Shown one piece after another: positions 3,301 through 17,698 of a stretch of 64,000 bases of DNA; the stretch's first letter is position 1, and each line of letters opens with the position of its first letter. The notes beneath the pieces are model-generated. The model was not told the DNA's origin, did not search any database, and saw only the letters and a list, made by a program, of their open reading frames with translations. This DNA comes from Phylloscopus collybita (Eukaryota > Chordata > Aves > Passeriformes > Phylloscopidae), in assembly GCA_027886175.1 (NCBI GenBank), contig JAJNNQ010000019.1, forward strand, positions 19,487,501 to 19,551,500. Reading direction: 5' to 3'. The position numbers and the translations under genes are program-made.

Positions 3301-6300
3301 ACCTTGCCCTGGAGTCTTTCTCAGCCAGCAGTGCCAGAGATGAGCTTTTAATCTAACTGAGAGCAGAACTCACTGCTAATTCCTCTTCCAGAAACATCCC
3401 AGTCTGAGACTCTTCTGTTGATGAGGGCCCTCATCCTTGTATCCCCTCCCTAGTTGGGGGGCAGGCACCACAAACCTGGGTTTGGCCCTAATTCCAGCTC
3501 ACGAGTTTGAGAGCCACGTTCAATTCTTGTGAGAACCACCCTTCCCAATGTCCTTTTACAGTGGGGATTTGGGGGGGCACTAGAGGTAGGAGCTACCTAA
3601 AGGTGTGAGAATTGTTCCTTGTTCTCTATCACAGGCACTTACCCCACAAGTTCATTTTGAAGAAGCTGTGTGTTCAAAAGGACCTGAATTTTGAAAACCA
3701 ACCAACATTATGTCATACTTTCTGTGCAAGAATGAATTATCTACACTTTAATAAAATATTTTTATTACCACTTTTTTGCATAAACTGCACAGGGATAGGA
3801 ATTCTCTGGACTGTGAATTACAACACAAACATTTCAAGAATGATGACGCAGAAGTTGTTTTCTTTTGGACATTATAATTTGCAGGAATAAAAATCTACTC
3901 CAGAAAGCCACTGCACTTAATCCAAATATCCAAGATGTGTAGTTACTTATGTATAAACAAATTTAGACTTTCTAGAAGGTTATACTTACAGCTTTCTAGC
4001 TGCAGTTGGCATGTTTGTGTATCCATAGGGTATTTTGACAGGTCCATGTTACAGGCAACAGTAGTAGTGATTCTGTAGGAAGAGAAAGAACTCTGAAAAC
4101 TGCAATAAAAGCATGTTTTACACAGCAAACTGGATCACAAAGCTCTGCTCTGTCACTTACATTATTTGGGCCTGTGACATGAATTAACTGAGAACTCTCA
4201 AGAAAAAGCACTCTTTGCAGCCACCCCAATGAAAATGTAGCCCAAGAAGGAATTTTGCTTTGATCTGGTGGGATATAGAGAGGGGGATGTAGATTCACAT
4301 TTTTCCCCATTACTACAATTTGCTCATTCTAAGGAGTCAGCACTTGTGACATGAGGCACAATGACTAACTGTACACATACTGTGGCTTGCTCTGATGTGG
4401 AAGTAGGTGAGTTTTACTCTGCAGCTGAGGTAACTGGGACCCAGTTACTGCAAGCTAAGGAGACCACTGTAGGAATTGCTGACTCCAGTGCTGTGCAGCT
4501 TCCCACAGTTCATGGACAAATACACTTCTTGGTAAAAAACAGAAGTCATCACTACATGGCAGTGGATAAGCAAATGGTTTCCCACTATCAGCTGAACTTT
4601 TACTGTTGTGATGTCCTCCTTCCATTCCTCTCCTGCCCTCATCTGACTGAATTTTTCCTCAGTGACACCTAAAGTCATGAGCTCTCCAAGCAGGCCTCAA
4701 GACACAGCATGTACTCTGCTGGGAGATACTGATCCTTGACTGGCATTTCCAGAGCCCAGAACAAGGGGAAATGGATCAGCAGAGAATGGCCACAGCTAGC
4801 TTGTTGACAGCAAACTCATGGCCTGTGACAGCTGGTACTTGCTCCTGCCCAGGGTAATTCTGGAAATCTATTCTGAGCCAGCAGCAGCAAAGCCAGAGGT
4901 CTCTGTACCTTAAGGCATACAAGACAGTGCCATTAGAGAACAGCCTGACCAGGCGGTTGCCCACAGTGATGTCGTGCAGGAAGGACCTTTTTGACTCCAC
5001 AATGTAGGTGTCTGGCACCCAGAGCAGCTCCACCAGGCGAGCGTCCAGCGTGAAGCTCTTGTTGCCATGGAAGACCAGCCGAGGGTCTGTCCAGCGCTGC
5101 CGCAGGGAGATGGTGGCTGTGTAATCCTGGGAACAGAGCAGAGCCTGGGAGGGGGCTGTGTAATCCTGGGAACAGAGCAGAGCCTGGGAGGGGGCTGTGT
5201 AATCCTGGGAACAGAGCAGAGCCTGAGTGGTGGCTGTGTAATCCTGGAAACAGAGCAGAGCCTGGCTGGTGGCTGTGTAATCCTGGGAACAGAGCAGAGC
5301 CTGGCTGGTGGCTGTGTAATCCTGGAAACAGAGCAGAGCCTGGCTGGTGGCTGTGTAATCCTGGAAACAGAGCAGAGCCTGGGGAGGTGGCTGTGTAATC
5401 CTGGGAACAGAGCAGAGCCTGGGGAGGTGGCTGTGTAATCCTGGGAACAGAGCAGAGCCTGGGAGGGGGCTGTGTAATCCTGGGAACAGAGCAGAGCCTG
5501 GGGAGGTGGCTGTGTAATCCTGGGAACAGAGCAGAGCCTGGGAGGGGGCTGTGTAATCCTGGGAACAGAGCAGAGCCTGGCTGGTGGCTGTGTAATCCTG
5601 GGAACAGAGCAGAGCCTGGGGAGGTGTGTCCAGGCACCCAGAGGGCACAGCTGGGGCACACTGTGTGACAAGGGACAGAACACGTCCTTCTTCAACATAT
5701 CACAGCCAAGCTTCAAGCTTGACTTTCATCACAGATTTTCACTCTGTAATATTTCTAATACACTTCCATTCTAAGGTGTGGAGTTTGAGAACTAAAGGTT
5801 ATACTTACAGTAGCTCATGTTTTTAATGAGCAGTTATTGTAATTGATATTTTTGTGCCCATTTTGCAGGTAAGAGAACAGATGGGAAGCACACACTTGAG
5901 GCCATGCCACAAGTCACTGACATCACAGATCAGTCATTGCCAAGAGCTGGGAAATTCCACATGTACTATAAATCTGGTCAGCAAAGAGGCACTGGCACTT
6001 TGGAGAAAAGGGTAAGTGAATCCAATCTGCTATGTCAGGGACATCTTAAAAAAATCCCAAACAAGTGAAAAAAAAAGAAAACTTGTGCCTTCTATTCTAA
6101 TAGGAATTTTGATTCTAAGAATGCTGGGATTAACTCGAGTTTGGCCTGCCAAAATCAACCTGCAATGACTGGAGTGTTCTTACAGTGCCCCACCAGAAAA
6201 GAATAGGCAGCAACAACTCAGCTCTGAAGCTGATGCTTTGCTGAGCCTTCTAGACACCACAGGCACTGCTGGACTATTCAACTTCCCCTCACAAGGGATG

Positions 6301-9300
6301 CCACACAGGATTGATTTTTTTCTATTTCCACAGGGTCTGATTTCTAAAAGGTGCTGAGTTTTTGACCAGTAGGACTTTTGGAACCACTTCTGTTTACTTG
6401 TAAGCCCACATTACTATGGCATCTACACAGTCTGCAGTCATAAATAAGCTCTGTTTTCATCCCACCACTGAAAGTGGTCAACAGCCCCTGAACAACAGAG
6501 CAGTTTCAAGATGACCCTTTCTGTGCTGGACACACAGGAAGACACGTGAAGTCTCTCAGGCATATCCCAATCTTATCTTGTAAAATAAACGTCCTCTCAC
6601 TTACCATGTCACTCTCAGATATACTAGAAATACTTGCAATGTCCAGACTCATTGCAATTTGTACAGGTTCTCCTGCAGAGGGAAAGAAAGGCTTCAGCAG
6701 AGAGAAGTGTGCAGGGCACAGTGAAGGCACTCAGGGTGCCGTGCAGTGCGGTCACTGTCCTCAGCCTCACTCACTGTCACTGCAGAGGCCCAAGGGGTCA
6801 GACACAGTTTCAGAGCATTAGGCTCACAAATGACAGGATCCAAAAGGCGGTGGTCACTGTTAGGGAGGCGGAGTTGTGCCTTTGGTGACGGTAGTTTGCA
6901 GCCAGTGCTGCAAAGCTCAGCAGTTTAGATCAGCAGCGTTACAGGGGCAGCTGCCGCTGGACAGGCAGCCAGGGCCACTTTGTCCCTCGATCGCAGCCCA
7001 CGCCAGGCACGGAGCGGCCACAGCAGGAGCCTCCGCACAGAGCCCTTCCCACGGCCCAGAGAGCGCCGGGCAGCGGCAGCTCCTGGGGAGGGGCCCCGAG
7101 AGCAGAGGAGCTCCCGAGGGCCGAGCACGGGCCCGCCCGAAAGGAGCGGCCGCGGCCCGGGCCCGGCTCCGCCAGAGAGAGACCCGCCAGGGCCGGGAGC
7201 CACCGCCAGAGGGCAGCACCGCCAGAGGACCACCGCCAGAGGGCAGCACCGCCAGAGAGCCACCGCCAGAGGGCAGCACCGCCAGAGAGCCACCGCCAGA
7301 GGGCAGCACCGCCAGAGAGCCACCGCCAGGGCCGGGAGCCACCGCCAGAGGGCAGCACCGCCAGAGAGCCACCGCCAGGGCCGGGAGCCACCGCCAGAGG
7401 GCAGCACCGCCACGGACAGCCACACGGGGGGACACGGGACACGGGGACAGGGGACACAGGGACACGGGGATACAGAGACTGAGCACAGGACACAACTGTG
7501 AGGAGCCGGCCTCCGGGGGATGTCACACCAGAGTCCTGGCTGGTTTTGTTTAACGTTTGCTGCAGATGCAGTGGATCCCTGTTATGTTGTAAAAAAGCAT
7601 TTGCTCACTGGTGTCACAGGACTTAGAAGAGCTTTTCTAGTCCTTCATCAGGTTAGCTGTTCCAGACATAATAAGATGGTAAATTCTGTGTTGTCTCAGA
7701 CATTTATTACCATGACCAGAAAAAGGAAGCAGCTCAGTGCTGCCAGTAGCAGCAGGTCAATCTACAATGGGAAATATCCATGGCCTTGTGAAAGCTGATA
7801 GGAAATTTTCCTGTCAAACAGGGTTTCATTAATGATTTAGGCACAAAATCAAAATTAATAGAAATAAAAATGGTCATTGCTGTTTCTTAAACTTTCAATA
7901 CTTTTCAGTTTCTGAATGTCATTCTGAGAAACCCTTTCCTCTGTGTGATGACAGCGCCCACCTGGAAGTTGTGAGACCTGACACCCAATAGCCTCAGATA
8001 AGTTCCTAAATTCCTGCCTGTTCCCAATTCTCCACAGTCTCGCCAGGGTTTGGAACAGGTTTTTGTCTCAGTGAGAGATGAAAGCATGTGTCAAAAGTCA
8101 ATAATCCTGGCAAGAAGAATGACTTTGTTCCTCTATAGCTGCATAAATAGCTATAATAGCTGTACATGACCAAAAGTAAAGCGGAAGGGTCAGGCTCTAA
8201 ACAAAAGCCTGTACAGTTAGAGCAGAATTTAGTTATTTACTCAGGTCTTTCAGAGAGATGTTAAAGTTTATAAATTCCTGCTCCTTAGCACAGAGCTGGA
8301 CATGTTCCCAAGCCCCACACACACTTGCACCAGCTATTCAAGACCACAGTGGCTGCACAGAAAGGAAGGCAGCCTGGGACACCAACTAAATTAAAAGAAG
8401 CACAACCTTTGAAACTGCAGAATCCTAAAGCAGGCTTAAATCCTGCTCTCCCCTCCACATGAGCCTTACAGACCGATTTTAAATGCTCCCTTGTGTGGAG
8501 CCAACATACCACCAAAGTAGGGCCGGAGGTATTTGTTGTACCCCATGGTGAGGTTCTCCAGTCCGGGGAGGAAAGTTGTGCCCCTGCCGTGCAAGCTGGT
8601 TCCATGGCCCAGAGAGCTCCTGGGGACACAAACACCAACTGTTACATGCTGGGCTGGGCACATCTGGTGTGCAGCTGCAGCTGCTTCCAGCTTGTGCTCA
8701 AACAAACAAACTGCACAGAATTGTTATTAAAACCAAGCAGATAATTGAAACCACAAGCATCTGCCCACCTTGCTGTCTTGGCTGAATAATTAGCACCTTT
8801 AAGAGGTGAGAAAATGGCAAATTGCCTCGGCTGATAGCTACAGGTTGCACACACAGTATCTTAAGAATGTTCTTGAAATATCACAGAAAAATCAAGCAAG
8901 GTCTCTAGATCACAAGCCTGAATAATAAACCCCAGTCTCCCGTTCCCACTCCTTCTTGTACAGCCTGTAGAAGGAATATCCATTTCTTTTTTCCTCCCAT
9001 TTATGACAACCTGAGACAAATCTTACAGCACAAAAGCTCCTCCTTTCTAATCTCTAGTCCCCTAAATAAGGTTCATCCTCCTAACATGTGAGTGTCAGCT
9101 CCTACAGCTGCTGTCAGGAGTAATATTGGAGGGGAAAGGTGCACTTCACAGACACCCCCTCAGCTCCAGGGACAGTGCTGCTCCAGCTGCTGAGCATACT
9201 GAGGGTCCAACTCTAAATGACAACCTCAAAATTTACATTTTGTGGCTGGACATTGAAAGCAGGAGTTGTGTTATGAGGCTGACAGATCTGCAGCCTCACA

Positions 9301-12900: not shown

Positions 12901-13584
12901 CACGTGTGACCATCAATAACTGCTAACCTACTTCCTAAAAGACACAGATCAATTGACAGAGTATTATAAACCCTTTAAATATTAATGCCCTATCAGGGAG
13001 ACAATTGCACTGGGCCTAGAGACTCCTTCACTATTAGAAATTATGCCCCAGCCTTAAATAAATTAACTCAATTAGTGTCTTACCATGAATACAAATTCCT
13101 GCTTAGGGCTTGCAAATAAAATGATTTAGAGCTGTTCTTCGAGGAAAGATGAGGTGTTTAAACTTGCAAAAGAGCAAGTGCTGCCATATTCATTAGTCAT
13201 CTGTTTTAAATGGACTGCTTTGCCAACTCAAACTCACGGCATCCCTTTTGGAAGGGAGGGGGAAGAGTGTGGAAAACTGTTACATTTTCTTACTCTGGGC
13301 TGCACAGTTTTGGTTCTGCAAAGATGCAGATGTCTGCTGCAGACTCCAAAGGCAGCTCAGGGCCAGGCCAGCTCAGCCCCAGGGGCTCAGAGCCATCGGC
13401 AGCACCTGCAGGACACCAGGAGCTGCAGGCTGCTGGCACTGGCCAGCATCTGTGCTGCTGCGCTGCTCCCAGCGGTGCTGGCAGGAGGTGACACGGTCAC
13501 CAGCTCTGAGAAACTTCATCTGGATCCCTGAGGCTGGAAGGAGCCACTCTGCCTTGCTCCAAGGTCGAATTTTATCTCAAAAAT

Positions 13585-13696
13585 CCCTTCCCTTCCCTTC
13601 CCTTCCCTTCCCTTCCCTTCCCTTCCCTTCCCTTCCCTTCCCTTCCCTTCCCTTCCCTTCCCTTCCCTTCCCTTCCCTTCCCTTCCCTTCCCTTCC
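13585..13696. repeat. (CCCTT)n pentanucleotide microsatellite, about 22 copies
   Basis: An almost perfect run of the 5-mer CCCTT covers about 112 bp. It is polypyrimidine on the plus strand and polypurine on the minus strand. Confidence 0.98.
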
Positions 13697-15125: not shown

Positions 15126-15181
15126 CTGGGCCCCCACAGCTGGGCCCCCACAGCTGGGCCCCCACAGCTGGGCCCCCACAG
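15126..15181. repeat. Four tandem copies of CTGGGCCCCCACAG (14 bp)
   Basis: Four back-to-back identical 14-bp units occupy 15126-15181. Each contains a run of five C, so the minus strand has regularly spaced G5 runs. Confidence 0.95.
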
Positions 15182-17698
15182 CTCCCAGCATCTCTCCAAG
15201 CACTGCAGCAATACACCCAATTCAAAATCTTTTGGGTTCTCATTTTGTCCTGAACAGTCACAGAGAGCTGACCCAGATGCAGCCCAGTGTTTTGCTGCTG
15301 AGATAGCTGGACATTGATAACACTTCCTATTATTATTTTCACTATTTGAGAATAATATTCTTGCTGAGGGGCTCTGGCCTGTGGAGGACTGTGGCTTCAT
15401 GTTATTCATGTGGGATATGTGAGCTCCCAGCAGAGGAGTGAAAGAGCAGATAAATGCCTCACCTGAAGCTCTTGTCCTCTGTTGTTACAGGTGAGCTCTG
15501 GTCCTCAGGAGCTCCAGCATGGCAGGAGTGGGTGCTGCTCCTTGGCAGAGCCCCTCAGGCACAGGTTTGTCAGCTGCCAGGTGTGTGTGTGCTATCTCCA
15601 CTGGGAAGGACACCTTTGAAAAGCTTCCCCAGAGAGCACTTCAGAATTTCCAAAATTAATGTCCAAAGAGTGTTTCCTGCTTTGGGGTGAAACAAAATGA
15701 GGAGGAAAAATCACCAAGGTTCACACGAGTTTATCTCACTAAACCTATCAAACAGTGCTGGTAGGTTTGCCAGCAGGAACACAGCTCTCATTACTTGGCA
15801 TGGGTTGAGGCTTAGTCATCTTAAAAATGCCTCAGCAAAAGGTAATGCAGTACAGAAACATACTTTGTGTTTAAAAATAGTCTCAACAGTTGTTAAAAGG
15901 GATTACGCAATGGTTTTTTCCTGTATCAGCAAACGTAGCAGGGCAGACAAAGTAAAAGGGTAACTCTGGGAATGAGGAAATTTTATCTAATTTACTGCAG
16001 CCTGAGGTGAAATATTAACTCAGCTCTGAGCTCTGCTGGGGTGTAAATAGCCTGAACAAAACCACTGCTGCACTTGCTTTTGAGGGCATGAACTCAGAGG
16101 TCTTCAAAGCTGTGCATGGTATCACAAAACACACCTTTCATTTTACTGAAGCATTCACTGAAACACTTACCTTTGGAGTAGATCGTTTTGAAGGCTGTGG
16201 AAGTAAGGAAAAGGAGAGAACTGTTTGACAGAAGTTTCCCTAAAAACTGTGAAAATAGTTTAAAGGGATGAAACCAAATCACTGCAGACTTACATTCAGG
16301 TTTGCATCTCAAAGGACAGGAGAAGTCTTTACATCCTTTCCCCACAGCTGAGCAGTGCTACCTGCAGGGATCCCTGCCCTCTGTGTGTGAGGAGCTGGAG
16401 TCAGCCCCACAGGCTCTGGGCTGGAGCCAGACTGATGCTCCTTGGGCATCTGGGGTAGAGCAGGTTTCAAGCCACTCCTTCTCAGGGTCATCCTTGATCT
16501 TGATCTGTGTCAGAGACATAAACCTGTCTGCCTGGGAATGCGCACACCAAACCAAAAGGGAATCCATAAAAATGGAGGAAAAGATCTGACATTTCCCCTC
16601 ATGATTATTTAGTTTATCTTTGTTACAGTATAAAGCACCCCCAGACCTGGCAAAAATAAAATAACCAGAAATCATGGAAACACTTGTGAGCTGATGGAGA
16701 ACATGCCCTTGGTATGAGACTGATAATTAGCTGACAGGGAGAAAATGTCTGGTGTCCTTAAAGGCTCTGTAGCCTATTTATTGCTACACCTGCAGTCATG
16801 CCACATCATCAGACACCCCTGAGGAGGCTTTGTGGCAGCTGGAAAAGTACTGACCAGTATGTCCCTAGCACGGGGACCAGCAGTGCCCTGGCAGAGCCTT
16901 GGTACCATTATCACAGGGAATTTGTACATGCCAGGGCCATATCTCTGCCTGCCAGTGGACTGGGAGATTGGCATGAGAAGGAATAAAGCTGATGTGCAGA
17001 TCTGGCCTTGTTATCAGAGGGATGGAATAACTCATGCAGTTATTTAGTTTGCCTCTGTGCCACATGCAGGCAAAAAGGGGCTATTATTGGATTTAAAAGT
17101 AACCTTTCCCATGCTGAGTTATGGCACACCCCTGAGGTTCTCCCCTTGTGCTCCAGAGACACAGCCCCTGAGCCAGTGCAGAGCTGCTCCCTCCCCACTG
17201 CCCCTCCGTCCATCAGGTGCCCTGGGACCCCTGAAGAAGCAGCACAAAATGCTCAGACTGCAGTAGTGATGGGCTCAGAATAAAACTGGAGCTGCCCAAT
17301 ATCTCGCAGCAGTAACTGAGGCTTCACCAGCCACTCAAACAAACCTCAGCCAAAAAGCAAACAAAAAGCCTCCGCACGTGCTTTGAGCCCGAGCCTGCTT
17401 TGCCTGGCAGCAGCTGGGACATATCCCAGGGAGGGAGAGGTGTTGAACAGGCAGCTAGCACACCTTCTTCTTGCAGAAGGGGCAAGAGTTCAGGTCTGGC
17501 ATTGTCCAGAGCGCCCTGCTGTCCCTGGGAGCAGGAGGTGCCTGCTGGAGCAGGTGCTGGGCAGGCACTGCAGTGACACCAAGACCACGTTTCACAGACA
17601 CCTTTATTTTCATACTTCTGCATGGATGAATGTTCTTTTTCCTGGGATGTAGTGGTAGATAGTAGACAGATAATACTCTACAAAATGGAGTTTAGCAA

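Follow-up and report, generated by a model that had tools for sequence, protein, structure and literature searches.

The 3' splice site of GABRP exon 4 is repeated in a 13-copy minisatellite that runs directly into the true exon, and this array is a real, extreme instance of the boundary-spanning minisatellites already known from amphioxus. We consider it probable that the array is a lineage-specific expansion of this splice site which the gene tolerates, with splicing still proceeding mainly from the donor at 6605 to the acceptor at 5126. The array extends boundary-spanning minisatellites from lancelets to a bird, with 13 near-identical acceptors and a unit that is short and mostly frame-neutral. 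The extra acceptors differ in little but their position, and the array is for this reason also a natural experiment on which of several equal 3' splice sites the spliceosome takes, the first AG, the exon-adjacent one or a mixture. Gene models and short-read mapping at the array may be unreliable.

The host gene and its exon 4 acceptor

GABRP lies on the minus strand of the window, the whole 64-kb stretch of DNA that was analysed, and its coding exons were placed by joining the reading frame (slashes outside brackets mark junctions here and below):

9999-9944, minus strand: GABRP coding exon 1
8619-8510, minus strand: GABRP coding exon 2
6672-6605, minus strand: GABRP coding exon 3, 68 nt, with donor ATG/gtaagt, the 5' partner for every candidate acceptor
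5126-4909, minus strand: GABRP coding exon 4, 218 nt, with canonical acceptor 5126 and donor AAG/gtacag
4072-3990, minus strand: GABRP coding exon 5
1672-1535, minus strand: GABRP coding exon 6
323-171, minus strand: GABRP coding exon 7
past the window start, in the flanking piece L007, minus strand: GABRP coding exons 8 and 9

With acceptor 5126, the nine coding exons join into an uninterrupted protein of 444 aa that is 95% identical over its full length to GABRP of Chamaea fasciata, has both Pfam domains of its family, and finds its best match among solved structures in 8vsz_A, a GABA-A receptor subunit pi chain. The junction was compared across 30 bird proteins, picked among 120 listed of 921 matches; at least two bird proteins among the matches listed, P0108 (59% identical) and P0113 (58% identical), were left out of this alignment. 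The plain junction M/D that results from 5126 is found in 23 of the 30. Acceptor 5126, the last of the array, is the genuine and conserved acceptor of GABRP exon 4. Downstream of GABRP, a cysteine-rich open frame on the minus strand (L007:1-552) resembles a portion of a gene for a secreted protein.

Anatomy of the array

Tandem Repeats Finder places the array at 5112-5626, with a period of 39, 13.1 copies and 94% matches, the top score among 29 rows for the 64-kb window. The positions of an exact word and a table of the units refine this as follows:

5112..5622, minus strand: minisatellite of 13 block copies with 12 inter-acceptor units

The repeated block (5622-5112) consists of 25 intronic bases and the first 15 bases of GABRP exon 4, so that, as in the amphioxus repeats discussed below, the unit spans an intron–exon boundary of the gene and adjoins the true exon. 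On the minus strand the copies stand head to tail, each with the acceptor consensus TT(C/T)CCAG/GATTACACAGCC, or in a longer reading ...GGCTCTGCTCTGTT(C/T)CCAG/GATTACACAGCC. Within the 64-kb window the minus strand has 13 exact matches to the word CAGGATTACACAG, every one inside the array, and the plus strand has none. The first exon bases of acceptors 1 to 7 are 5597, 5558, 5519, 5479, 5440, 5400 and 5360, and those of acceptors 8 to 13 are 5321, 5282, 5243, 5204, 5165 and 5126. A sequence-only reading had described a 13-copy array of 39/40-bp units that crosses the intron–exon junction and adjoins the true exon; the repeat search, the 13 exact words, the unit table and the joined reading frame all bear this out.

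The units are 39 bp long in nine cases and 40 bp in the other three (units 3, 5 and 6). Six unit types can be told apart; towards the true exon they run A B C B C D E A E F B B, and exon base 13 is C instead of A in 4 of the 12 units. Variation between units is limited to an 8-nt spacer and one pyrimidine, while the AG, the tract and the exon start are constant; CAG/G and the pyrimidine tract are kept in all 13 copies. The mixed order of the six types makes simple stutter an unlikely source of the array.

That the real genome lacks the array, or carries it at another length, is very unlikely in our judgement. Tandem repeats are a common site of assembly errors, this array is known from the assembly alone, and a mis-assembled repeat of the amphioxus kind is reported in the available part of PMC3087553. 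Against such an error stand the six unit types in mixed order, the intact flanking gene and the contiguity of the source assembly (517 contigs for 1.247 Gb).

Possible seed and growth

When the array is removed in silico, CACC is the sole match of at least four bases at a distance of 40 within 120 bases around the junction, and the same 120 bases hold no such match at a distance of 39 or 41. Joining the exonic ...GCCACC to the intronic TCCCCAGG... reproduces exactly the spacer that the three 40-bp units have. The array probably started from a single 40-bp tandem duplication between the two CACC, from the one in the intron end (GGACACACC/TCCCC) to the one in the exon start (GCCACC/ATC), a four-base match that is weak in itself. 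Since this joining gives the spacer of the 40-bp units, 40 bp is probably the ancestral length and 39 bp derived. One base would then have been lost from the spacer, giving rise to the 39-bp units that are now the majority, and more duplications would have led to the 13 acceptors in their present order before the exon.

Thirteen near-identical acceptors

Acceptors were scored with an approximate vertebrate matrix set up from general knowledge. A splice signal lies inside the repeat unit in all 13 copies: 10 of them, 5126 included, score 8.7 and the remaining three 9.1, within the range of seven other GABRP acceptors tested (6.4–14.2). Every copy thus scores equal to 5126 or slightly above it, in keeping with the earlier description of near-identical acceptors in a row. 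An AG outside the array with first base 5660 scores 8.8, and among the extra AGs in each unit one that lies 18 nt before the main AG scores 6.6 at the seven positions at which it is among the best 40. An acceptor with first base 5650, which is implied by an insert of the type annotated in Poecile (see below), does not reach the top 40 AGs under this matrix, an example of how far such scores can be trusted. The acceptor sequence itself does not set 5126 apart; the downstream exon alone does.

The copied exon start may in addition offer the acceptor behind it a candidate branch point. For 11 of the 12 acceptors preceded by another unit, the site most like a branch point is ATTAC, 35 or 36 nt upstream; at acceptor 5204 a site other than ATTAC scores higher. 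Every unit behind another has a polypyrimidine tract, a CAG and a candidate branch point ATTAC from the copied exon start, and because ATTAC was exonic before the duplication, the duplication itself may have given each copy a new branch point.

Splicing most likely continues to join 6605 mainly to 5126, and we infer that the twelve upstream copies are mostly silent decoys. This preference for 5126 is argued from its being the only copy that stands before genuine exon sequence and gives a normal exon length, and from comparable amphioxus repeats that are reported to leave regular splicing undisturbed. The equal scores (8.7 for 5126 and for nine other copies, 9.1 for three, 8.8 for 5660) count against it.

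Two other ways in which the upstream copies could matter, or be kept silent, were weighed. Decoy acceptors might bind splicing factors and tune the splicing of exon 4, as a device under selection; the confinement of variation to the spacer and one pyrimidine would fit such a role. The test for this clustering, however, hinges on the assumed number of events, its probability running from 0.03 (3 of 4) to 0.0004 (6 of 7), few mutations or homogenisation account for the clustering equally well, and bird models show the intron end without the repeat, so that we hold a selected regulatory device to be highly improbable. Helices between units are likewise conceivable in a repetitive array, and RNA structure could in principle hide the upstream acceptors. 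The stretch 5680-5080, however, folds no better than its shuffles (z +1.09, with 16 of the 20 shuffles equalling or surpassing it), which leaves this explanation with next to no credibility.

The exon 4 junction in other birds

Inserts at the M/D junction are present in 2 of the 30 aligned bird proteins, Poecile isoform X1 and Oenanthe isoform X4, and five further models have another structure at the exon 4 junction, four of which run LC..Q directly into D(Y/F)TATI. The Poecile insert (P0007) is LCRAGAQTHIPRLCSVSQ, 18 residues; the Serinus model (P0036) includes the homologous intron end, LCRAGAWTHMPRLCSVPQ; and the Oenanthe insert (P0009), LCQQVPGHTSQLCCVPQ, 17 residues, is similar to the Poecile and Serinus stretch. 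The corresponding part of the window is:

5598..5650, minus strand: single-copy intron end, homologous to the Poecile X1 insert and the Serinus model

This stretch (5650-5598) encodes 17 residues and, at 53 nt, is one base shorter than the 54 nt of Poecile and Serinus; its use would shift the frame. The songbird gene models of Poecile, Oenanthe and Serinus already take an acceptor 51–54 nt upstream of exon 4. The bird models with a junction insert, two of them with M/insert, suggest that songbirds can splice to upstream acceptors, which counts against a merely tolerated array.

In all three models the intron end is present once and continues directly into the D(Y/F)TATI exon, with no repeat. 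Because the intron end is single-copy in these other songbird models, the expansion is probably lineage-specific, as judged on the annotation models of a few other songbirds.

Consequences of using the upstream acceptors

Use of the upstream copies would turn the following stretch, delimited by the joined reading frame, into exon:

5127..5597, minus strand: would-be exonic stretch if upstream acceptors are used

Nine of the 12 extra acceptors are in frame (5165, 5204, 5243, 5282, 5321, 5360, 5519, 5558 and 5597). Use of the six nearest the exon, 5165 to 5360, would lengthen the protein by 13 to 78 residues; for 5519, 5558 and 5597 the gain would be 131, 144 and 157 residues. The reading frame is fully open for all nine; 5479, 5440 and 5400 lead to a frameshift and an early stop. 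The in-frame inserts would fall directly before DYTATI. The array is open in all three frames; the same holds for 2175 of 5000 shuffled 39-mers and for 1889 of 5000 shuffled 40-mers, and with so many open shuffles the open frames give no sign of coding selection. The placement of the 40-bp units relative to the frame has a chance probability of 0.09, which is weak as a sign of frame selection. Given the open shuffles and this probability, the nine frame-neutral acceptors cannot be taken as selection.

One 13-residue insert lowers the Pfam score of the ligand-binding domain from 163.2 to 149.5 bits. The insertion point stands before the DYTATI strand, behind the loop that in receptors of this family links the binding domain to the channel. 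Because it lies beside this gating or coupling loop, an insert at the exon 4 junction would probably harm the subunit. A protein search for the repeated insert gave none at E ≤10 out of 7996 scored candidates, a weak negative, since plain GABRP was not recovered either although its exon start is in the query region.

These observations bear on the possibility that the array works as a ladder of acceptors, several of which are appreciably used and place inserts of 13n residues before DYTATI, with an array length that varies between individuals. The alike scores of all array acceptors speak for it, as do the nine in-frame and fully open extra acceptors, including the six nearest the exon, and the annotated Poecile and Oenanthe isoforms with inserts of 18 and 17 residues at the same junction. 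The open frames and the position of the 40-bp units are, however, uninformative for the reasons given, regular splicing is reported to go on undisturbed despite the amphioxus repeats, an insert next to the gating loop is probably harmful and is accompanied by the lower Pfam score, and the search for a repeated-insert protein came back empty, weak as that result is. We therefore regard such a ladder as unlikely. Its boldest form, a vertebrate ion-channel ladder in which individual-specific array length sets the in-frame GABRP isoforms (+13n residues near the gating loop) and the copied exon starts act as branch points, seems to us more doubtful still.

It is also highly improbable that the array is regular coding sequence, with 5597 or another upstream acceptor as the main one and an exon 4 of up to 689 nt. 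Acceptor 5597 keeps the frame, which is open all the way, but its use would place 157 residues inside a conserved receptor domain, no such residues are found in 23 of the 30 aligned bird proteins, and the differences between units, among them T to P and S to F, show no visible coding constraint. A tolerated array spliced mainly at 5126 is the reading that we prefer over these.

Relation to known boundary repeats

The CFTR (TG)m(T)n tract, a repeat of variable length located at a 3' splice site, has an effect on splicing. It is a microsatellite inside one acceptor and does not multiply acceptors, whereas the GABRP array does.

The closest counterparts are the 'mirages' of amphioxus, tandem repeats at or across intron–exon boundaries in the Adh3, troponin C, PGBD5 and globin genes, the globins being BflGb6 and BflGb9 (PMC3087553, PMC3902484, as far as their available text goes). 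The sequence-only reading knew of no described case in which a coding exon's 3' splice site is itself the minisatellite unit; the claim that there is none is wrong, as mirages that include copies of a 3' intron end and an exon start had already been described. In BflGb6 the 3' intron end and the 5' part of exon 2 are copied, one haplotype having 6 units and another 3, and the Adh3 mirage has units of 10–72 bp and somatic instability (PMC3087553, available part). Regular splicing is described there as undisturbed, yet the use of cryptic sites within the repeats is considered possible (PMC3087553), and for the Adh and troponin C mirages the accessible text of PMC3902484 reports duplicated splice sites and no aberrant mRNAs.

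Like the mirages, the GABRP array consists of minisatellite-like tandem copies of an intron–exon boundary, and BflGb6 shares with it the combination of 3' intron end and exon start. The BflGb6 units are, as described in the available text, 150–160 bp long in 6 and 3 copies, in contrast to 39/40 bp and 13 acceptors in GABRP; length and somatic instability are documented for the mirages, whereas the GABRP array is known from one assembly. The hosts of mirages are lancelets, on another branch of the phylum than the host of the GABRP array.

More distant parallels exist elsewhere. In human segmental-duplication genes, minisatellite units of ~30 bp at exon–intron boundaries can shift exon–intron structure (PMC2812944, in the part available); that account concerns recent duplicated copies and stresses new introns, whereas GABRP is a conserved gene with an existing acceptor as the unit. 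Intron polymorphism in Cryptococcus CNN00420 is ascribed to repeat expansion that multiplies splice signals (PMC2395259, available part), but there whole introns are multiplied, and in GABRP only the acceptor and 15 exon bases. The available portions of PMC3549977 and PMC4039745 contain nothing that bears on acceptor-spanning units. Among the matches listed by a literature search in which subscription papers were thinly covered, there is no bird case and no case described with as many acceptors.

The array in the genome and other repeats

A DNA search of the source assembly, which skips simple and very common words, returned six matches, one of full length and 100% identity, which is the window itself, and five at 66–69%. 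A dispersed satellite family was rejected as a description of the array: there is one full-length locus, and the other five matches lie in minisatellites with units of 41 bp (contig 27) and 43 bp (contig 3). The 41-bp minisatellite on contig 27 (L008:3173-4776) has 37.8 copies, and its unit also resembles a pyrimidine tract plus CAG.

With cut-offs of period 10–100, at least three copies and a score of at least 80, four arrays were counted in 199,919 bases sampled at 20 places of the same contig, compared with four in the 64-kb window, numbers too small for a genome-wide estimate. None of the four sampled arrays has an acceptor-like unit by a loose pattern.

Other repeats accompany GABRP in the window. 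The intron between coding exons 2 and 3 contains a GC-rich minisatellite (7169-7412) whose best row has a period of 49 and 5.1 copies and which also shows a 30-bp periodicity. A perfect TCCCT pentanucleotide run of 22.6 copies (13584-13696) lies upstream of the first coding exon, and a perfect 14-bp repeat (CTGGGCCCCCACAG) of 4.1 copies is found at 15126-15183, upstream of the coding exons.
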